DNA of 38,109 nt, from positions 1 to 38,109 of the IMG/VR virus record IMGVR_UViG_3300032053_000211; one strand, given 5' to 3'. The notes under the pieces were generated by a model. That model was not told the origin of the DNA and ran no database searches. It worked only from the letters and a program-made list of their open reading frames with translations. How positions within the stretch are numbered: position 1 is the first letter of the stretch; each line of letters starts with the position of its first letter. Positions 13,201-37,278 of the stretch are shown here, piece by piece. The stretch comes from a virus. The position numbers and the translations under genes were made by a program.

Positions 13201-13275
13201 GGTATCCTTCTACCGTTTTCGGCGGAGACTGGCAAGGATTCGCCCCACAGCGCCGCAGGATCGGCGTGTGAGAGG
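13201..13275 (+). promoter_or_regulatory. Structured intergenic element, copy A
   Basis: The stretch after the lysin stop holds a dyad GGTA-N6-TACC (13201-13214), then 20 nt later AGGATT..CGCC, and then a hairpin GCCG-CAGGAT-CGGC within GCCGCAGGATCGGCGT (13252-13267), followed by TGAG. The same elements, in the same order and with the same 20-nt spacing, occur at 33239-33310. Both copies lie directly upstream of small genes with strong ribosome sites. A shared operator or RNA control element is likely; the mechanism is unknown. Confidence 0.5.
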
Positions 13276-13591: not shown

Positions 13592-13603
13592 CCGTGGTAT
13601 ACT
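13583..13603 (+). promoter_or_regulatory. Extended -10 promoter with overlapping dyad operator
   Basis: CCACGG-TAG-CCGTGG (13583-13597) is a perfect 6-bp inverted repeat with a 3-nt centre. It runs into TGGTATACT, an extended -10 (TG at 13595-13596, TATACT at 13598-13603). No good -35 box is seen, as is common for extended -10 promoters. The AAGGAGG site and GTG start of the DUF932-like gene lie about 35-50 nt downstream. A protein bound to the dyad would block or assist this promoter. Confidence 0.55.
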
Positions 13604-13651
13604 AGCCTCACAAAAGTCGTATTTCATATTTTCTGGAAGGAGGCACCCTCT

Positions 13652-14747: not shown

Positions 14748-17396
14748 GTGGACAGCTTCGCCGCCCAGTGCCGTCTCATGAGAAACGACGAATTCGCAGC
14801 CCCTGCCCTGTTCGATACCGACGCATTTCGGGTTAAGCAGCCACGCACGCTGCGCCCGCGTGCGCCGGTAGACCTGTCTGCGCTGGCGGTAACGATGGAT
14901 GGTAATCCTAACTGCCGCCGGTGCTCGCTATGGGAAGGCTGCAAGAGCGCTTGCATCATGGGCGAGGGGCCGGTGCCTTGTGACGTTGCCGTGTACGGCG
15001 AGTCCCCTGGGCCGGAAGAGGATGCGCTCCGGCGCTCCTGGATAGGGCCAGTAGGTAAGTTCCTGCGTAAGGCCTTGGATGAAGCGGGGCTGCCCTCAGA
15101 TCAGGTCTACCTGTCGAATGTCCTCAAGTGCAAGCTCAAGACCGCATCGGATGGGAAGCGCGTTCCCCCGACCCCCAAACAAGCCAAGGCGTGTGCTCCC
15201 TATCGAGAGGCCGAGCTACGGTATGTCAAGCCTCGCTTCATTATTCTGCTAGGTGATGAGGCGCTTAGGGCCTTCACCAGAAAAGGTAAAATCACAGCGG
15301 CGCGCGGCGGCGAAATCTACGATGCAGCGGAGAACTGTTACTACCTGCCGACCTACCACCCCTCCTACGTGATGCGGGATCGGCGCAGGCTGGATCGATT
15401 CTGGGCAGACCTAGAGAAGTTCGTTCAACTGATCAAGGGAGAGGCCCCTGCCCAGGACGTCATCATTCGGCACGTCCTTGATGCTGACACGGCCCTAGAG
15501 TGCCTTGACGCACTAGGGAAGGCCGATGTCATCGCAGCGGACATCGAGACGACGGGCCTGATAGACTACCGACCTGGAGCACGTGTTCTCAGCATCGCCT
15601 TGTGCGGGGACGGTAAGACTGGCTGGGCGATTCCGCTTGATCACCCGCAGTCCCCCTGGGGGGGAGACGCACTCGACGCTGTTTACGAGGAGATCTTCCG
15701 CCTGCTGTACGAGAAGCAGGTCACCAACCACGCGACGAAGTTCGACCTTCGCTGGCTGGCGCGGCTCAGAGGGTTTGACATCTGGAAGATGACCAAGCCT
15801 CCCCGCGACACCAAGGTGATGTCTCACTTGCTAGACGAGAACGAACCAAAGGGGCATCACTTGAAGCCGATCGTTCGTGATGAGCTGGGCGCACCCAACT
15901 ACGCGGCGGGTGTGGACTTCAAGGAGGGGATCGGCCCCTGCGCGTTACGAGGCGAGCCTCTTGCCCTGGGCGACCTGCTAGACTACAATGCCCAGGACGC
16001 CGTATGGACACATCGCCTGGATACGCTGCAGTACGGGCGCATTCTCCAGCAGCCTAAGATCGCGCGGCTGCATCGCATGGTGCTGCTGCCTGCCTATCGC
16101 GCGCTCATCGAGATGGAGCTGAACGGAGTCTACGTCGACCCTGAGCGACTACCGGAGCACGCCAGCGACCTGCGCAGGCTGCTTGCCGAACTGCACCAGC
16201 GGATGTTCGAGGAGTTCGGTGTCAAGCCGGAGAGCTTCCGCAAGCAGGCTTTCCTTATCAACTGGATTTACGGCCCGCCGCCTGGCGGGTTAGGCATTCC
16301 CATCACGGATCGGACGGAGAAGACAGGGCGGCCTGTCGTATCAGAGAAGAAACTAGCCTATCACCGCGACGAGTGTCCGGCCATTGACCTCTACTTGGAG
16401 ATCAAGGAAGTCCAGAAACTGCTGGATACGTACTTGGGGACGGAGACGGAGGGCACGACGACCAAGAAGGTGACGGGCTGGCCTAAGCTGATCTCCCCTG
16501 AGACGCACCGTCTTTACCCCTACTATAATCCGTGGGGCACAGTGACAGGCCGCGCGTCGGCAGAGAAGCCGAACGTCCAGCAGACGGCACGCGATCCTCG
16601 TGTCCGATCAGTGATCTGTGCGCCTCCTGGCTATAAGCTAGTGTCGCTTGACTACGCTCAGATCGAGCTTCGCGTTGCGGCGGCCATGTGGGACGACGGG
16701 CCGTTCCTGAAGACCTTTGCGGCGGGGCGCGACCCTCACCGCGAGGGCGCGGCATGGGTGACGGGCAAGGCCTTAGACGTGGTCACCTACGAGGAGCGCT
16801 CCCGCGCCAAGGGGCGGCACTTTGGCTACCTCTACGGCATGGGCGCGCCCAAGTACCAAGGGTACGCGTTCCGAAACTATGGCTTGAGGCTGACCCTGTC
16901 GGAGGCCGAGGAAGACCGGCGAGTGTTCTTCGAGCAGCACCCAGGCGTCGTCGCAGGGCACGAGCTGTATCGCGGGCTAGCGCACAATGATAAGCAAGTG
17001 GAGTCCTTGCTTGGACGTCTACGGCACCTGCCAGACATCGATTCGAGCGATAGGGGGCTGCAGAGTTATACGGAACGGCAGGCAGTCAACTCGCCCGTGC
17101 AGTCTACCGCGAGCGACTTCACGTATTGGAGTATGGGGCTGATCTACACGCCAGAAGTGATGATCGCGCTCGGCCTGTCTGGTATACTACCACGTGACGA
17201 GATTCGGCTGGTGGCCTGGATTCACGACGCGTTGCTGTTCGAGATTCGCGAGGACAAGGTGGATCACTACGTGCCCGTGCTAAAGCGGATCATGGAGACT
17301 CTCCCGCTGCTAGAGCTAGACCCCGATGTGTGGTTCCCTGTCCCTCTAGTGGTAGACGTTGAGATTACTCAATGCTGGGGCGATAAAGCATCATGA
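14748..17396 (+). CDS. Uracil-DNA glycosylase / 3'-5' exonuclease / family A DNA polymerase fusion
   Basis: An 882-residue replicative polymerase. N-terminal family 4 UDG-like domain (about 50-235): Cys pair NCRRC (56, 59), GESPGPEEDALRR, NVLKCK and TYHPSY, with Cys consistent with a 4Fe-4S site. Exonuclease: ADIETTG (Asp265, Glu267), NHATKFDLRWL, YNAQDAVW. Polymerase: motif A LDYAQIELR (Asp635), motif B RSRAKGRHFGYLYG (Lys688), motif C IHDALLFEI (Asp827), where the usual Glu after Asp is Ala. Polymerases with an N-terminal UDG-like domain are known from SPO1-type phages. No ribosome site precedes GTG 14748; ATG 14778 is an alternative. Confidence 0.9.
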   Translation: MDSFAAQCRLMRNDEFAAPALFDTDAFRVKQPRTLRPRAPVDLSALAVTMDGNPNCRRCSLWEGCKSACIMGEGPVPCDVAVYGESPGPEEDALRRSWIGPVGKFLRKALDEAGLPSDQVYLSNVLKCKLKTASDGKRVPPTPKQAKACAPYREAELRYVKPRFIILLGDEALRAFTRKGKITAARGGEIYDAAENCYYLPTYHPSYVMRDRRRLDRFWADLEKFVQLIKGEAPAQDVIIRHVLDADTALECLDALGKADVIAADIETTGLIDYRPGARVLSIALCGDGKTGWAIPLDHPQSPWGGDALDAVYEEIFRLLYEKQVTNHATKFDLRWLARLRGFDIWKMTKPPRDTKVMSHLLDENEPKGHHLKPIVRDELGAPNYAAGVDFKEGIGPCALRGEPLALGDLLDYNAQDAVWTHRLDTLQYGRILQQPKIARLHRMVLLPAYRALIEMELNGVYVDPERLPEHASDLRRLLAELHQRMFEEFGVKPESFRKQAFLINWIYGPPPGGLGIPITDRTEKTGRPVVSEKKLAYHRDECPAIDLYLEIKEVQKLLDTYLGTETEGTTTKKVTGWPKLISPETHRLYPYYNPWGTVTGRASAEKPNVQQTARDPRVRSVICAPPGYKLVSLDYAQIELRVAAAMWDDGPFLKTFAAGRDPHREGAAWVTGKALDVVTYEERSRAKGRHFGYLYGMGAPKYQGYAFRNYGLRLTLSEAEEDRRVFFEQHPGVVAGHELYRGLAHNDKQVESLLGRLRHLPDIDSSDRGLQSYTERQAVNSPVQSTASDFTYWSMGLIYTPEVMIALGLSGILPRDEIRLVAWIHDALLFEIREDKVDHYVPVLKRIMETLPLLELDPDVWFPVPLVVDVEITQCWGDKAS

Positions 17397-19159: not shown

Positions 19160-19620
19160 GCTATCCTGCTGAGCTTAAGACGGCCAAAGACATCGCCGGA
19201 GTGCTGCGCCGCGTCAACGACGATCTCGCGGACAAGTCCCCGTTTCGCTTTGCCACGGTCGAGAAGCTGCTCCGAGAAATCCTGACGGACTATCCCGACC
19301 CCTACGAGGTCGCTGTTGTCTTGTCACGGGCCGCCTATCGTGGGGAGCTAGACCTCGGCGGCGAGGTGTGGAATACTCTGGATGTGCGAGCCTACGCACG
19401 GCTGCGCACTTGGTACTGGATGCCAGAGGGGATGGGGCGGTATGCCTATCTCATGGACTTCGTCGCTGGGGCGTCTCTGTGGGCGCAATGCTATCCGTGG
19501 CTCGCGGCGTGGGAAGATGCGGCGGACGATAGTCGGGCGATCACCAAGGCGCAGGCGGAGCTAGACCGGCTGTTGGAGGGTATCGGTGGAAGATCTTCAG
19601 CCGACACAAGCCGCTCCTGA
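19153..19620 (+). CDS. Hypothetical helical protein before the helicase
   Basis: A 155-residue protein starting at GTG 19153 inside the last codons of the previous gene. It appears mostly helical and rich in Trp and Tyr (ARLRTWYWMPEGMGRYAYLMDF). The C-terminus overlaps the helicase start by 35 nt. A small helical protein next to a DnaB-type helicase could be a loader or a partner, but nothing in the sequence proves it. Confidence 0.5.
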   Translation: MVGYPAELKTAKDIAGVLRRVNDDLADKSPFRFATVEKLLREILTDYPDPYEVAVVLSRAAYRGELDLGGEVWNTLDVRAYARLRTWYWMPEGMGRYAYLMDFVAGASLWAQCYPWLAAWEDAADDSRAITKAQAELDRLLEGIGGRSSADTSRS

Positions 19621-20884
19621 AGTTGTTGAGAGACTGCTTTTGTCCGCTATGCGGACGCAGGAGGCTCTCACCAAGCTTCGGCGTGCGAGCATCACACTGG
19701 ACTCGTTTTCCCAGGCCGTCTATCACGATCTCTTTGTCTACATTGAGCGACGTATTATTGAGACGGGCCAGCCTCCTAGTGACTCTGAGTTGCTGGCGCT
19801 CTATCAGTTCACGCCGGACAGGACGGCCACCGACGTCGACTCGCTAGCACGAACGTTGCGAAAGCAGGAGCTGATCCGCAAGGGGCAGGACGCCATGCAG
19901 ACCCAGATGACCGAGCTATGGTATGGCGATCCAGAAGAGGCCATCCAGAACGTAATCACAGGGCTGTCCAATCTGCAGGCGGGCGCGTCCGAGCACCTCG
20001 GCTTCAGCGACGCAAGCGCGATGGATCGTCTTCTGAATGTCAAGGAGCGCAGTGAGATGCGTGCGCGGGGAGAGATCATCGGGATTCCTACGGGCCTGCC
20101 TCTGTTTGACGACACCGGCGTCGGCTGGCAGCCCGCCGAGCTAGTCACGATTCTGGGCCGGAGTACCATCGGCAAGTCGTGGCTGCTGCTCTTCTTCGGC
20201 TGCGTGGCATACTTCTGCGGCAAGCGCGTCCTCTACATCTCGCCGGAGATGAGCAAGCTGCATACCGAGTTCCGCATGGACGCCGTTCTGTCCCGTTTCT
20301 ACAATATGGTAATCAGCAACAGCGCACTGATAAACGGGTCGGTTGATCTCCAGCTCTACGAGAAGTGGCTGGGGGCACTGAGTGGCGAGCGCCGCTGGGT
20401 TACAGCCGACAGCACCGAGACCTCGACAGGCAAGTTCGCCCTCAAGGATATTGCTGCGCTGGTTGCTGCGCACCGTCCCGATATGCTGTTAATTGACGGC
20501 TTCCACCTCATCGGCGGCAGCAAGGATGAGCAGTGGAAAGTCATCGCCGAGGCTGGTCAGACGTTGAAGGCGCTGGCTCAGCGGAACGGGATGGTGGTTC
20601 TCGTAGCGATGCAGGTCGTGCGCGAGGCGATGAAGACAACGGGCGAGGCTCCTGACCTGCAGCACGGGGCCTACGGCAAGGCACTCCTTGAGGATAGCGA
20701 CCGCGTGTTCAGCCTCGCGATGCCCAAGGGCCAGCCGCGACTGCGCTACCTGAAAGTTCCTAAGACGCGAGACGGCGAGCCCGTTACGATTCGAGTGCAT
20801 CTTGCTTTCGACGTTGATGTAGGCGACATCCGGCAAATCTCGGCGGATGAGTTGCGCGAGGAGATGGCACGTGAAGCGGATTGA
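19586..20884 (+). CDS. DnaB-like replicative helicase
   Basis: A 432-residue protein. An N-terminal helical domain (about 1-110; VERLLLSAMRTQEALTKLR, ITLDSFSQAVYHDLFVYIERR) matches the DnaB N-domain. A RecA-type ATPase follows: Walker A GRSTIGKS (191-198), VLYISPEMSK, Walker B LLIDGFHLIG (about 301-310), and MQVVREAMKTTGEAPDLQHGAYGKALLEDSDRVFSL near the end, where the usual DnaB Ser/Gln-rich sensor sits. It would form a ring that unwinds DNA ahead of the polymerase. It overlaps the primase gene by 14 nt (GTG 20871 inside its end), so the two are coupled. Confidence 0.85.
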   Translation: MEDLQPTQAAPEVVERLLLSAMRTQEALTKLRRASITLDSFSQAVYHDLFVYIERRIIETGQPPSDSELLALYQFTPDRTATDVDSLARTLRKQELIRKGQDAMQTQMTELWYGDPEEAIQNVITGLSNLQAGASEHLGFSDASAMDRLLNVKERSEMRARGEIIGIPTGLPLFDDTGVGWQPAELVTILGRSTIGKSWLLLFFGCVAYFCGKRVLYISPEMSKLHTEFRMDAVLSRFYNMVISNSALINGSVDLQLYEKWLGALSGERRWVTADSTETSTGKFALKDIAALVAAHRPDMLLIDGFHLIGGSKDEQWKVIAEAGQTLKALAQRNGMVVLVAMQVVREAMKTTGEAPDLQHGAYGKALLEDSDRVFSLAMPKGQPRLRYLKVPKTRDGEPVTIRVHLAFDVDVGDIRQISADELREEMAREAD

Positions 20885-21764
20885 TGTGCGCGCCGCTGTC
20901 CGCGTGCTGGGAATCACGATCACTAGCGAGAGCGACACTGAGCTGATAGGGCTATGTCCGCTGCACGACGACCATCATCCCAGCTTCGCTATCAACCAGC
21001 AAACAGGCGCATGGGTGTGCTACACGGGCTGCGGGCAGGGCGGCATATTAACCCTAGCGCAGCGCGTCCTTGGCTGTAGTTATCAGACCGCGCAGTACTA
21101 CCTGGATAGCAAGGTGGTCTCCGCGATGCCGGAAGCGCCGACGCTAACCATCGGGGCGGAGAAGGAGGTCGTCGGCCCGCCCGAGTTCCACTACGTTGAG
21201 GGCAAGACGCACCGCTATATGATCGAGCGCGGCTTCACGCCGGACACGCTTAGGGACTGGCACGTGGGATGGGACTTCGCACGCCAGGCAATCGTCATCC
21301 CCGTGACGTGGCAGGGGGATACCGTGGGCCTGATCTACCGGCATGTGCCACCCATTCCGGAGGGATATCCTCGCTACGAATACACCCCTCACATGCCCAA
21401 GTCTCGCATCTTGTTCGGCTGGGATCACATCGACTGGGCGGCGGATGCCCCCTTGATTATGGTGGAAGGCCCCTTGGACGCCCTAATGATGCACCAGTAC
21501 GGGTTCCGTACGACGGCGGCGATCTTGGGCATGTCTATGAGCAAGGCCCAGGCGGAGCTACTCAATGCACGGAGCCTGCGGGTTACGTTGTGCTTTGATC
21601 AGGATGAGGCGGGGCGGGATGCCACGAAGCGCGGCATCAAGTTGCTACACGGCAGGGCAGGTGTGGTCAAGCTGCCCCATAAAGACCCCGCCGAATGCAC
21701 GCGCGAAGAGGTCGCCGAGGCCCTAGCCACAGTTTCAACTTTGTGGGTGCCACCACATGCTTGA
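20871..21764 (+). CDS. DnaG-like DNA primase
   Basis: A 297-residue protein from GTG 20871 (GAGGAG a few bases upstream; it overlaps the helicase stop). Zinc-binding part: LCPLHDDHHPSF and CYTGCGQGG (Cys29, His32, Cys50, Cys54), with a 3-residue gap in the last pair where most primases have 2. The Toprim domain has VEGPLDAL and LCFDQDEAGRDA, holding the acidic residues that bind metal. It would make RNA primers for the polymerase. It is shorter than cellular DnaG, as the helicase-binding C-terminal domain is absent. Confidence 0.85.
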   Translation: MKRIDVRAAVRVLGITITSESDTELIGLCPLHDDHHPSFAINQQTGAWVCYTGCGQGGILTLAQRVLGCSYQTAQYYLDSKVVSAMPEAPTLTIGAEKEVVGPPEFHYVEGKTHRYMIERGFTPDTLRDWHVGWDFARQAIVIPVTWQGDTVGLIYRHVPPIPEGYPRYEYTPHMPKSRILFGWDHIDWAADAPLIMVEGPLDALMMHQYGFRTTAAILGMSMSKAQAELLNARSLRVTLCFDQDEAGRDATKRGIKLLHGRAGVVKLPHKDPAECTREEVAEALATVSTLWVPPHA

Positions 21765-21801
21765 CAACGGGCGCGAGACCTGGTATTGTTCCTTCAGAAG
21801 G
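21761..21801 (+). promoter_or_regulatory. Sigma70 promoter with dyad at the start site
   Basis: TTGACA (21761-21766), a 17-nt spacer, and TATTGT (21784-21789) with TGG before it. This is close to consensus in both boxes and in spacing. CCTTC-A-GAAGG (21791-21801) straddles the predicted start site near 21796 and may be an operator. The -35 overlaps the primase stop. AAGGAGG and the ATG of the sigma-like gene follow within 40 nt. Confidence 0.7.
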
Positions 21802-21826
21802 CAAGTTGTAGAAGGAGGCGATACCC

Positions 21827-22327
21827 ATGACGTTTGACGAGAAGCTGGCAGCCTGCCAGCCGACTATCTCCTATTGGTGCAGTCAGGCCGACTCCATGGG
21901 CCTAGATCAGGATGATGTGGAGCAGGAGCTGACGATCAAACTCCACAAAATAACCACCCAAAACCCCGATTTGCGCTCCTCTGTTCCTGTATACTTTAGA
22001 GCAGTAGCTCACAACTGCGTGCTGGACATGCAGCGGGTGAGCCAGCGGGAGGCCCGCCGCACTGTCAACCTGGAGACGCAGGCCGAGGTGATCCATAGCA
22101 GCTCCTCGGCACGAACCCTGGCTGACGCGGAATTTCAGATCGATCTTGAGCACGCGGGCTTGAGCAAGGACGCGATTCGGTTTATCCGAGTCGTCCTGGA
22201 GACTGGCGGACGCGGTGCCCGCCCCGCGTTCGGCGACACCCAGGTCAGCCACCGGCGATTCTACCGCGCCAGAGACGAGATTCGGAGATTCCTAGAAGGC
22301 CGAAGGGAGGCAGCACTTGCCACTTAG
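21827..22327 (+). CDS. Phage sigma-factor-like protein
   Basis: A 166-residue protein of ECF sigma style. Region 2: LDQDDVEQELTIKLHKI (about 26-42), then VPVYFRAVAHNCVLDMQR, the place of -10 recognition. Region 4: a helix-turn-helix-like stretch from about 115 to 155 (SKDAIRFIRVVLETG..., VSHRRFYRARDEIRRFL). It would bind host RNA polymerase and redirect it to phage promoters. AAGGAGG precedes the ATG, and a strong host-type promoter lies upstream, so it is probably made from a host-dependent transcript. The promoter it reads is not identified. Confidence 0.65.
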   Translation: MTFDEKLAACQPTISYWCSQADSMGLDQDDVEQELTIKLHKITTQNPDLRSSVPVYFRAVAHNCVLDMQRVSQREARRTVNLETQAEVIHSSSSARTLADAEFQIDLEHAGLSKDAIRFIRVVLETGGRGARPAFGDTQVSHRRFYRARDEIRRFLEGRREAALAT

Positions 22328-23114
22328 CAGAGGGCGCGATGCCCTACAAGATTACCTGACCAAGCAATCACAGGAGGGGTTCGGCGGGAGCCGCTTCCTC
22401 GTCTTGCGCGCAAGCGGAGAGGCCGCTAAGATCAGAGTCCTGACCGAGCAGACGGAGTTTGTGCTGGGCAAGTTCCACCGACTGGCAGTCACCACATCAA
22501 CAGGGAAGCTCCGTGTCGGCGATCCAATCCTGTGCTCCGAGGACGACACCTGTGAGGTCTGCGCCAGCATCACAGAGGACTCTGCGCGGGCGCGCCTCCT
22601 CACCTTCTACTGGGTGTGGGTCTACTACGTCGACCACACCAGGCAAAACCCCTCCACGCGGGCCGGTACGAAGCCTTGGGAGCAGGTCGTCTACGGGAAC
22701 ATGGTTTGCTACCGCGAGCCAGTCGAGGCTCCTAGACTGCTCTTGGCAGGGTCGCGCCTAGCGGCGAAGATGGACACCTACTACGTTCGGATAGGCTCCA
22801 TTACGGATCGCGACTACACCCTGATTCGGACGGGCGAGAAGCTAGAAACCGAGTACAATCTCCTCGCGGACGTTCCCGCCCCGTTCCGCACCGACATCGC
22901 CAGCATCATTCCCACTCTGACATCATTGGAGGACATCGCATATGGACGAGCAGGCACCGACGACCTCCCCACGGGAGTCCCTACGGGAGCGACTCATGAA
23001 GAACGACCCACCGGACGGCCCGCCCCCCAGCCCGACGCAGGACTCATCAGTCTCGGCCTCGACGCCGAGCCCGAAGCCGCCGCCCAAGGTGAAAACCCCG
23101 ACATCTCCTGGTAG
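22317..23114 (+). CDS. Single-stranded DNA-binding-like protein
   Basis: A 265-residue protein from TTG 22317, overlapping the sigma-like gene by 11 nt (AAGGGAGG 7 nt ahead). The N-terminal part (VLRASGEAAKIRVLTEQTEF) and a Cys cluster (LCSEDDTCEVCA) resemble phage SSB-type proteins with a metal-binding knuckle. The C-terminus is Pro-rich and ends in acidic ENPDISW, similar in form to the DIPF tip through which SSB proteins recruit partners. Coupled to recombination genes. The family is inferred, not proven. Confidence 0.55.
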   Translation: MPLSRGRDALQDYLTKQSQEGFGGSRFLVLRASGEAAKIRVLTEQTEFVLGKFHRLAVTTSTGKLRVGDPILCSEDDTCEVCASITEDSARARLLTFYWVWVYYVDHTRQNPSTRAGTKPWEQVVYGNMVCYREPVEAPRLLLAGSRLAAKMDTYYVRIGSITDRDYTLIRTGEKLETEYNLLADVPAPFRTDIASIIPTLTSLEDIAYGRAGTDDLPTGVPTGATHEERPTGRPAPQPDAGLISLGLDAEPEAAAQGENPDISW

Positions 23115-26765: not shown

Positions 26766-26796
26766 AAAAGCCCCCTAGATGGGTCGAGCGGCGAGG

Positions 26797-26802
26797 TATA
26801 AT
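26797..26802 (+). promoter_or_regulatory. Candidate -10 element (TATAAT)
   Basis: A perfect TATAAT in the gap between 26765 and 26838, preceded by GAGG, about 36 nt before the ClpP-like start. No convincing -35 box lies at 15-19 nt upstream. It is a plausible promoter for the protease and following genes. Confidence 0.45.
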
Positions 26803-26837
26803 GAGGCTAATCGAGCTAGCAGAGGGAGAACAATACT

Positions 26838-33238: not shown

Positions 33239-33316
33239 GGTAGACGGATACCGATTCACGCCAGCAGGCCGCAGGATTTGCGCCGTGTGGCCGCAGGATC
33301 GGCGTCTGAGGAGAGG
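33239..33316 (+). promoter_or_regulatory. Structured intergenic element, copy B
   Basis: GGTA-N6-TACC (33239-33252), then AGGATT..CGCC 20 nt on, then GCCG-CAGGAT-CGGC inside GCCGCAGGATCGGCGT (33290-33305) and TGAGGAG. The same order and spacing as copy A at 13201. It starts 11 nt after the terminator and ends at the ribosome site of the next gene. No clear promoter was seen within it. Confidence 0.5.
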
Positions 33317-34301: not shown

Positions 34302-35792
34302 ATGAGTATTGACACCGCGATCGATCCGCTCACCGACGAGGAGAAGGTCGTCATCAACGGCTCAGCGAAGCTCTTCTGGCACTTTCTCCTTAAGTTCTAT
34401 CCGCTGTCCTTCGCCGAAGAGAAGTACTTCATGGCGAACAAGCGCTGGAGCCCGTTCCGCCTTTCGGCGATGCACCAGGCGTGGGCGGGGGCGGCGCAGC
34501 AATATTCCCGCCTATGCGTCCTGGCCCCACGCGGACATCTAAAGTCAACCGTCCTGGGGCGAGGGTTCCTGTTCTGGCTGGGTATGCGGGAGACGAAGGA
34601 CTTCGACGCCGTTTACTTTAGCTACAAGGACAACCTGGCCCGCGACCATACGATGGCTCTTAAGAGCTACATCAAGGACAATCCCTACTGCCGGTGGTGG
34701 GTCGACAACAAGCCCACGAGTGACAGCCTGGTAGACTTCACCGCATCGTGGGGGCCGCCAGGGAACGAGACGTGGCACTTCGTGGTGGAGCCTGCGGGCA
34801 TCCTGGGAGCGTCGCGCGGGAGACATCCGAAGGCGGTGGTATGTGACGACATATTGTCGGACTTCGCAAATCCTATGGAATCTGAGGAGGTTGTGCGCAT
34901 CAACAACATCTTCCACCAGGTGGTGATGTCGATGCCGGAGCTACACCAATCCTTGCTCCTGGTCGGGACGCCGCAGGCCGAAAACGACGTCCTCCACAGC
35001 GTGCAGAAGGACAGGCGCTGGCACTGGCGGCGGTATCCGGCGATCAAGAACGAGGTGACGCAGGAGACCCAGTGGCCGGAGAAGTTTGATTACGGTCGCC
35101 TGATGGAGCTGTTGGCTGAGGTCAAGCCGCGCGCGTTCCAGGTGGAATACCTGCTCAAGCCTGTGGCTACTGCGGACGCCTACTTCCCCCGCTTCGCCAT
35201 TGATAACATCGTCGACGAGAATCTGCGGCGCTGGACGACGGATGAGCCTTGGCCTGGCCGAGGGCGCTACGCCACCTACGGCGGCATGGACGTGGGCAAG
35301 GAAGTCCACCCAAGCCACATCACCGTCCACGCCATGATGCCGGACGGCACGCTGATGCAGATCTTCGAGGAATGGCTGAACCACATGGACTTCAGGGCTC
35401 AGGCGATTCGCGTGAACCAGATCATCGAGCACTTCGACGTCGCCAGGTTCTTCTACGACAGCACGCGCGCCGAGCTGGATGACCGTGCCTTGTCCAAGCG
35501 CGCGCAAGGGAAGAAGTTCAAAAAGGGCATCAAGGTCACAATGGCGACTATGTTCGAGAAGCGCGTGTACTCCCAGCCTGGGGAGCCTGGGCTCATCTTG
35601 CTAGGCCCTGAGAACAGCCGCCAGGTGCGCCAGATATGCGCGGTCAAGAAAGACCTGAGCGCATACGAGAGCGAGGACGGACACGGCGACAGCTTCTGGA
35701 GCAACTCCCTGGCCATCTACGCGGCGGACACCGGCCCAAGCTTCGTTGATCTAGGTGATGTAAACGATATGTTCTCTCGTCGCCTACGGTGA
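34302..35792 (+). CDS. Terminase large subunit
   Basis: A 496-residue DNA packaging motor. ATPase: Walker A APRGHLKST (75-83), Walker B AVVCDDI (about 178-184), and a later VGTPQAEND (about 221-229), the usual coupling region. Nuclease: GGMDVGKE (Asp330), FFYDSTRAE (Asp386) and GHGDSFWSN (Asp463), the RNase H-like acidic set that cuts genome concatemers. It pumps DNA into the prohead at the portal. No clear ribosome site precedes ATG 34302, which is unusual here. Confidence 0.9.
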   Translation: MSIDTAIDPLTDEEKVVINGSAKLFWHFLLKFYPLSFAEEKYFMANKRWSPFRLSAMHQAWAGAAQQYSRLCVLAPRGHLKSTVLGRGFLFWLGMRETKDFDAVYFSYKDNLARDHTMALKSYIKDNPYCRWWVDNKPTSDSLVDFTASWGPPGNETWHFVVEPAGILGASRGRHPKAVVCDDILSDFANPMESEEVVRINNIFHQVVMSMPELHQSLLLVGTPQAENDVLHSVQKDRRWHWRRYPAIKNEVTQETQWPEKFDYGRLMELLAEVKPRAFQVEYLLKPVATADAYFPRFAIDNIVDENLRRWTTDEPWPGRGRYATYGGMDVGKEVHPSHITVHAMMPDGTLMQIFEEWLNHMDFRAQAIRVNQIIEHFDVARFFYDSTRAELDDRALSKRAQGKKFKKGIKVTMATMFEKRVYSQPGEPGLILLGPENSRQVRQICAVKKDLSAYESEDGHGDSFWSNSLAIYAADTGPSFVDLGDVNDMFSRRLR

Positions 35793-35808
35793 CCGTACCT
35801 CCGCCCGA

Positions 35809-35821
35809 ATCGTCATAGTAA
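35809..35821 (+). repeat. 13-bp direct repeat, copy 1
   Basis: ATCGTCATAGTAA occurs here, shortly before the ribosome site of the gene at 35838, and again at 36981-36993 before the gene at 37009. In copy 2 it also carries the previous stop codon. It may mark a shared regulatory signal or a short duplication; the length allows chance to be excluded only weakly. Confidence 0.35.
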
Positions 35822-35837
35822 GTGAGGAGGCGCACTT

Positions 35838-36422
35838 ATGGAAAACAGAAGCGCTGAGGGCTACGTCATCCGGATGTTCGTGGAGGACGCGCCTATCAAC
35901 GAGGACGGATCGATCGATTACAACTTCACGGTGCACGAGCGCATCGAGGACTTGCTGGAGGAGGCGTACTGGGGTGCCGAGGACATCGCGTATGTCCGTG
36001 TCACCATAGAGGAGATACCCACGCTTAAGCGAACAGGCATCTTCGCTACCCCATGGCGCTGGTGCTTGCTCTGCCGCAAGCGGAATCAAGAGGGCGACAC
36101 CTCGTGCTGCGTTTGCGGCGCATCCCAGGACTACCTGGTCAGCTATCCAGTAGGGGAGGGAGACCCTATGCCACATAGCGCCCAAGCCCGCGAGGGGCGA
36201 ATGCCGTTTGCCTCGTTTGCGAGAAGCGGCGCAACACACGACCCCGAAGGCGTCGACGCTTACTGCTTCTTCTGTGAGAAGCGGTTCGCCGACAGACACC
36301 TCGACCCCGACGACTACTACTGCTACGGCTGCCACGAGTACGTCTGCGACGATTGCAACCTGAACGCCGCCGTTTGCGGCCCCCACGCCGTGATGGATCA
36401 CGTCGCACCGGACGCGGAATGA
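35838..36422 (+). CDS. Protein with several zinc-finger-like motifs
   Basis: A 194-residue protein from ATG 35838 (GGAGG ahead). Residues 1-70 are acidic. A first Cys pair set is WCLLCRKRNQEGDTSCCVCG (about 75-95), like a RanBP2-type finger. A second region (about 140-185) has CFFCEK, CYGCHEYVCDDCN and CGPHAVMDH, resembling a cross-brace or B-box-like site. Likely zinc-binding, perhaps for protein or nucleic acid contacts. Function unknown. Confidence 0.6.
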   Translation: MENRSAEGYVIRMFVEDAPINEDGSIDYNFTVHERIEDLLEEAYWGAEDIAYVRVTIEEIPTLKRTGIFATPWRWCLLCRKRNQEGDTSCCVCGASQDYLVSYPVGEGDPMPHSAQAREGRMPFASFARSGATHDPEGVDAYCFFCEKRFADRHLDPDDYYCYGCHEYVCDDCNLNAAVCGPHAVMDHVAPDAE

Positions 36423-36679: not shown

Positions 36680-36990
36680 TGATCGCCCGCACGATCTATC
36701 TCGCGCCCTGCGCGCCTACTCAGTGCGAGGCCCTCTTCGTCGAGGGGGACAACGACGGATTCGACTTTGCGATGTGCAGCCAGGAGGCCCTCGTCTATGC
36801 GCAGGAATTCGCGCTCGATTATCCGATTCCGATGTGCGCGAAGTGCCTGGGCATACTGGTGCAGACGCCTGTCGTGCGAGGCCTGCTTACGTACGGGTTC
36901 TGCCCGACCGAGGAGGAGATGGACGAGGAGATGCGGTTAGCTGCCGAGGCGGGCCACCCCGTGACCGAGGCCCTGCCAGGATCGTCATAG
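36679..36990 (+). CDS. Small hypothetical Cys-containing protein
   Basis: About 103 residues. The start is ATG 36679, with GAGGAG ahead; GTG 36676 is next to it in frame. It is acidic with scattered Cys (LAPCAPTQCEAL, MCAKCLGILV). The Cys could form a metal site. No family recognised. Confidence 0.5.
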   Translation: MIARTIYLAPCAPTQCEALFVEGDNDGFDFAMCSQEALVYAQEFALDYPIPMCAKCLGILVQTPVVRGLLTYGFCPTEEEMDEEMRLAAEAGHPVTEALPGSS

Positions 36991-36993
36991 TAA
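36981..36993 (+). repeat. 13-bp direct repeat, copy 2
   Basis: ATCGTCATAGTAA, identical to 35809-35821. Here it overlaps the end of the gene at 36679 (Ser-Ser-stop) and precedes AAGGAG for the gene at 37009. Confidence 0.35.
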
Positions 36994-37008: not shown

Positions 37009-37278
37009 ATGCCAGGCGCGAAGTACATCAGAGCCTTTGGCTACCCACTAGCGTTCGTTTATGGCCCCGAGCAGGGGGTCGTCGTCGCTGGTGCGCTGGG
37101 GCTCTTTGCCATCGGCACCCTTGGCCACCACCAGCTCATCAGGATCGCATCGCAACTCGGCCTGCAGACCCTGCGATGCGGTTTCCTGCGCATCCCGACG
37201 CCGTTCCTGATCGTCACCGTTGAGCTGGGGGCAGTGGGCGTCACTGTCGGCTTCGGGCTCAAGACTGGCTACTACTAA
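37009..37278 (+). CDS. Small hydrophobic protein
   Basis: An 89-residue protein from ATG 37009 with AAGGAGAAAGG ahead. Rich in Gly, Val, Ile and Leu, with long hydrophobic stretches (about 21-45 and 60-80). Could be membrane-associated or a beta-rich domain. No family recognised. Confidence 0.5.
   Translation: MPGAKYIRAFGYPLAFVYGPEQGVVVAGALGLFAIGTLGHHQLIRIASQLGLQTLRCGFLRIPTPFLIVTVELGAVGVTVGFGLKTGYY

Follow-up and report, generated by a model that had tools for sequence, protein, structure and literature searches.

A phage ECF-like sigma factor gene behind a host-type promoter, and a candidate promoter class of its own

Few phage sigma factors have a promoter that has been defined by experiment. 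Examples are gp36 of phiEco32, which recognises the single element tAATGTAtA and is without region 4 homology, and gp47 of Salmonella phage 7-11, which recognises GTAAtg-(16)-aCTA upstream of late genes; early promoters are sigma70-dependent (PMC8948821). Phage ECF sigma factors have already been described as an outlier subgroup (PMC7881722). The ECF41 promoter reads TGTCACA-n16-CGTC, with CGTC as the ECF -10 element and a spacer of 16 +/- 1 nt (PMC3426412).

The locus considered here lies in a stretch of 38,109 nt, in the following called the window (IMG/VR virus record IMGVR_UViG_3300032053_000211). A sequence-only reading of it had proposed a cascade: Host polymerase makes a small sigma-like factor, which then retargets transcription to late genes, and a dyad at the start site suggests feedback.

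The sigma gene and its place in the replication module

The protein under study, P0001, is encoded between primase and SSB-like genes. The relevant features are:

19586-20884, plus strand: DnaB-like helicase gene of the same module (profile match)
20847-21764, plus strand: DNA primase gene with Toprim and CHC2 zinc finger, upstream of the sigma gene (profile match)
21827-22327, plus strand: ECF-like phage sigma factor gene, 166 aa, P0001 (family profiles; dN/dS 0.30)
21833-22066, plus strand: sigma region 2, residues 3-80, with core-binding LDQDDVEQEL and region 2.3/2.4-like YFRAVAHNCVLDMQR (profiles, family alignment, helix pattern in the model)
22154-22306, plus strand: divergent sigma region 4 helix-turn-helix, residues 110-160 (full-length alignment with relatives; Sigma70_r4_2 in 25 of 44; model pLDDT about 80 there)
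22317-23114, plus strand: SSB-like gene overlapping the sigma stop codon (PHROG SSB, E=5.5e-4)

An IMG/VR search with P0001 yielded L001 (same species), L002 (80% protein identity), L003 (69%) and L005 (about 25%). A subsequent profile scan brought the total to 125 loci, 80 of which were kept. No P0001 relatives were found in cultured phages by tblastn; another family member gave only weak matches there, in three short records. A scan of bacterial and archaeal genomes returned distant matches only (24-30% identity).

The region 2 and region 4 patterns that had been seen in P0001 are weak in the single sequence and strong at the family level. P0001 alone matches Pfam Sigma70_r2 with E=0.037 (14.3 bits; cut-off 24) and TIGR02937 with E=3.8e-5 (23.4 bits; curated cut-off 42.9), and its own region 4 matches no profile, so that this region is recognised at family level only. 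By comparison, TIGR02937 (sigma70-ECF) is matched by 44 of 44 aligned members (best 1e-18), Sigma70_r2 by 43 and Sigma70_r4_2 by 25 (best 6.3e-6). The curated TIGR02937 cut-off is exceeded by 16 of 16 long relatives, which have one sigma each. P0001 aligns full-length and collinearly with its relatives in the 44-member alignment, where P12, D27, D30, Q33, L35, F57, R70, F119, Y146 and R149 are invariant. D27xxD30xxQ33 fits the stretch of region 2 that normally contacts core polymerase. A PDB profile search returned sigma factors almost exclusively (best E=0.002). PHROG 1740 (phage RNA polymerase sigma factor) is matched by L005 with E=2.9e-9; P0001 itself has no match to it at E<=1.

Structure prediction, which had been proposed as a check on the sigma assignment, gave no clear answer. 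A first AlphaFold model built from 9 sequences had a pLDDT of 60, and its matches are meaningless. With 44 sequences, pLDDT rose to 71.5 and pTM was 0.42; Foldseek returned no significant match, and sigma region 4 chains appeared at Z 3.6-4.0 among unrelated helical rows. P0001 comprises regions 2 and 4 without regions 1.1 and 3, and its two helical halves are joined by some 15-30 linker residues. Its dN/dS against L002 is about 0.30 in the sigma frame only, indicating purifying selection on the ORF. Judged by profiles and alignment, the gene at 21827-22327 belongs to an ECF-like sigma family with regions 2 and 4.

All called genes of the window are located on the plus strand with tiny gaps. 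Their order is PolA (14748-17396), helicase, primase, sigma, SSB-like, RecA and Cas4-like, and the SSB-like gene is probably cotranscribed with the sigma gene. The PolA gene encodes a DNA polymerase I of 882 aa that unites N-terminal uracil-DNA glycosylase (UDG), exonuclease and PolA domains in a single protein. A DnaB-like helicase is encoded in the same locus as the sigma gene in 79 of 79 loci, in 78 of them within 3 kb (downstream) and on the same strand. The other module genes among these 79 loci are primase (78), SSB-like (74), HTH (72), PolA (65) and RecA (40), counts in which some genes are cut off by short contig ends. Since the association with helicase, primase and SSB runs across all 79 contigs, the sigma gene can be regarded as a stable part of the replication module.

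The host-type promoter and a second promoter class

Three elements precede the sigma gene:

21761-21789, plus strand: sigma70-type promoter TTGACA-N17-TATTGT, hexamers and spacing kept in relatives
21791-21801, plus strand: dyad CCTTCAGAAGG where transcription probably starts, likely due to chance
21812-21818, plus strand: strong Shine-Dalgarno sequence AAGGAGG, invariant in four aligned sequences

The hexamers TTGACA (21761-21766) and TATTGT (21784-21789) are separated by a 17-nt spacer with a TG extension at 21781-21782, and the -35 box overlaps the primase stop codon. This is the best sigma70-like plus-strand site of the window and the sole one on this strand with 10/12 matches in 38 kb; shuffling predicts 0.55 such sites, both strands summed. 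In the alignment, the counterpart in L002 is TTGACA-17-TATCGT and that in L003 a weaker form, TTGACT-17-TATGCT. Conservation of -35 and -10 at 17-nt spacing in three species marks the promoter sequence as real, and the claim that a host-type promoter leads into the sigma-like gene is supported. The dyad from which feedback had been derived is present, but at chance level: One as good is found in 14% of shuffles of the region. In addition, it is unconserved, being broken in L002 and located in a stretch that is absent from L003.

L002's contig, G001, is 109,910 bp long, carries a direct terminal repeat of 127 bp and looks complete; G001rc designates the reverse complement of the record. Intergenic regions of G001 have GTAAC-N16/17-CGTCT(A/C)TATCAG in common. 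GTAAC-N15-17-CGTCT occurs eight times on the plus (gene) strand and never on the minus strand, with 0.12 expected per strand, and the copies are mostly located 48-74 nt upstream of start codons. A ninth site belongs to the window's own species, which L001's contig continues for a further 2,248 bp; the site is found at extended position 39829, 1.7 kb beyond the end of the window. Leave-one-out matrix scores of the sites range from 20.7 to 34.5 bits, compared to about 12 for the best independent G001 site. With two blocks and a 16/17-nt spacer, GTAAC-CGTC looks like an ECF promoter. The phage genome indeed contains a shared non-sigma70 motif, for which a search had been advised.

Each of the nine sites is followed by small genes, most of them of unknown function and one weakly SprT-like. 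The sites head small-gene operons in two genome regions. Directly upstream of one site, G001rc 43027-47991 (L019:1923-6884, minus strand) encodes a protein of 1654 aa that contains a DRAT-like ADP-ribosyltransferase domain (E=3e-6). The portal (21129), major head (68404) and terminase (107639) genes of G001 have no GTAAC-CGTC motif. In the window, GTRAC-CGTC is absent from the 120 nt upstream of genes 150, 5221 and 34302, the late genes at which a shared motif had been expected, and a loose sigma70 pattern finds no site upstream of them either. Because the motif heads small genes and structural genes are without it, a regulon of small operons is supported and a 'late gene' switch is not.

A variant, class B, is represented in the window by two candidate ECF-type promoters:

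35789-35822, plus strand: GTGAC-N17-CGTCATAGTAAG before the gene at 35838; same element in G001
36961-36993, plus strand: GTGAC-N17-CGTCATAGTAA before the gene at 37009

Class B recurs in G001. Four G001 copies and one of the two window copies overlap the 3' end of the upstream ORF and end exactly with it, and class B is less certain because its copies mostly overlap ORF ends. The small genes overlapped (window 36961; G001rc 919, 2578, 2846 and 48434) encode a VTxxxxxSS-like peptide tail. A peptide tag was considered as an explanation, but the 35789 copy does not share the reading frame of the terminase gene that it overlaps. An element acting at the DNA level is preferred, with low confidence.

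Further elements are shared with G001. An intergenic hairpin-like repeat, GCCGCAGGATCGGCG, is located at 13235-13272 and 33273-33310 and occurs once in G001. A GC-rich inverted repeat at 75-130 before the gene at 150 resembles GGGGCGGGG ... CCCCGCCCC in G001. The extended -10-like sequences TGGTATACT and GGTATAAT (13592-13651 and 26766-26837), without a clear -35, precede genes 13652 and 26838, and similar ones are present in G001.

The proposed cascade and its alternatives

In the proposed mechanism, a tailed phage whose genome measures about 110 kb would produce a compact sigma factor of ECF-like type, limited to regions 2 and 4, from 21827-22327. As the conserved sequence suggests, host RNA polymerase with the housekeeping sigma would transcribe the gene from 21761-21789, possibly in addition to read-through from the replication operon. 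The phage sigma would bind the host core polymerase and direct it to GTAAC-N16/17-CGTCT(A/C)TATCAG, and perhaps also to GTGAC-N17-CGTCATAGTAAG. This second promoter class would serve the several small-gene operons that it precedes in two genome regions. The nine sites probably constitute the regulon of this phage sigma, a link that we infer because a single sigma is known in each genome, sigma and motif are both ECF-like in form, and there is precedent. The whole model, from the host-type promoter via the phage ECF-like sigma to its own GTAAC-CGTC promoter class, appears rather likely to us, with the pairing of sigma and motif and any timing as its presumptive parts. Of the cascade originally suggested, the path from host-type promoter via sigma-like gene to, by way of the presumed link, an own motif class is partly supported; late genes and feedback are not.

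It is unlikely that the phage sigma is real and uses other sites while GTAAC-CGTC is read by a host ECF sigma, e.g. of the ECF41 or SigX type. The motif closely resembles host ECF promoters such as TGTCACA-n16-CGTC (PMC3426412), and distant phages with the same sigma family have a different enriched element. There, TAGTATAATA is repeated before genes in G010, G011, G012, G014 and G015, strand-biased in most contigs, and TAGTATAAT is present in 5-10 copies per contig on the gene strand. In the more distant relatives with a sigma of this family, GTAAC-CGTC is not enriched; a scan of the collection found single matches in six other contigs unrelated to G001, few enough for chance. Either specificity changed, or sigma and motif are unconnected. 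Against a host reader, eight gene-strand sites with a common leader in one 110-kb genome are more regular than borrowing of a host ECF sigma needs. Furthermore, P0001's counterpart is the sole sigma-like protein known in G001; family searches gave no other, but they are too insensitive to detect even this sigma.

TAGTATAATA was found by an 8/10-mer search of upstream regions. The same search revealed, in the distant relative G013, terminator-like hairpins with a common TTGTGAA loop at 43404, 44148, 51098 and 55644. It missed the known motif in G001 and is therefore no proof of absence. A genome-wide dyad count and an EM motif finder also missed this motif in G001, their positive control, and their negatives on relatives were not used. 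The distant relatives are presumably marine, as read from contig sources. A broader picture, which we put forward tentatively and with more doubt than belief, is that a widespread, mostly uncultured lineage keeps an ECF-like sigma in its replisome operon (79 of 79 contigs) and thereby ties a private promoter class to replication. Within the lineage, specificity might have changed: the distant, probably marine relatives would use one TTAGTATAATA-type element, and this genus the bipartite, ECF-type GTAAC-CGTC.

Quite improbable is the view that the sigma gene is mainly transcribed by read-through from the replication operon and TTGACA-17-TATTGT is incidental. Genes in the same direction with tiny gaps favour read-through, and in the distant relative L005 the sigma gene directly follows an HTH gene with no room for a promoter of its own. 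However, the site is kept in three species. In L002, a 155-aa ORF with HNH-like residues (L002 9471-9938) is inserted between primase and sigma promoter; the promoter is intact although the adjoining upstream DNA differs from that of the window.

It is very doubtful whether GTAAC-CGTC is an operator bound by a repressor, or part of an RNA leader, instead of a promoter. Conservation does extend beyond the -10 into TATCAGTGAAAGG, i.e. leader and ribosome-binding site. Two blocks with a variable spacer of 16-17 nt, occurrence on a single strand and an ECF-like consensus argue for a promoter. In addition, the 18-nt leader TCAGTGAAAGGTGGTGAT is found both after the GTAAC-CGTC motif at G001rc 47995 and after a sigma70-type promoter, TTGACT-17-TATGGT, at G001rc 7702, which would place CGTC at about the -10 position.

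Least probable is a sigma-derived DNA-binding or RNA-polymerase-binding regulator that no longer initiates by itself: P0001 scores low as a single sequence, and its region 4 is divergent and contains additional residues, but its core-binding residues D27, D30 and Q33 are invariant in 44 sequences, and the gene is under purifying selection.

The preferred model, a phage sigma that reads GTAAC-CGTC, concerns a distinct sigma family that occurs in 125 or more contigs of uncultured viruses, has a fixed place in the replication module and comes with nine predicted promoters. Therefore, sigma-promoter pairing and its evolution are directly testable. If the pair works, it would provide a compact orthogonal sigma/promoter pair.

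Comparison with known systems

The mechanism would be of a known kind because 7-11 gp47, phiEco32 gp36 and the phage ECF subgroup are precedents. Like the factor proposed here, gp36 of the Kuravirus phiEco32 is a phage ECF-like sigma that uses host core polymerase after early transcription by the host sigma (PMC8948821, PMC7881722). It differs in its single-element promoter and in having no region 4 homology. The ECF41 promoter is close to (T/C)GTAAC(A/G)-n15/16-CGTC of this phage. However, ECF41 proteins continue at the C-terminus into a large regulatory extension (PMC3426412), and the 166-aa phage protein ends right after region 4.

The closest precedent is gp47 of Salmonella phage 7-11. A comparison of the family profile (A6) with gp47 gave 2.1 bits and an HHalign probability of 0.1, i.e. 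no detectable specific sequence relationship. Gene neighbourhoods are also different, and gp47 serves late-gene promoters instead of the small-gene operons found here. Both belong to the ECF-like sigma factors of phages that have regions 2 and 4, and the promoters, known for gp47 and presumed for the factor here, are bipartite: GTAA and CTA blocks are spaced by 16 nt in 7-11, GTAAC and CGTC by a similar distance in this phage.
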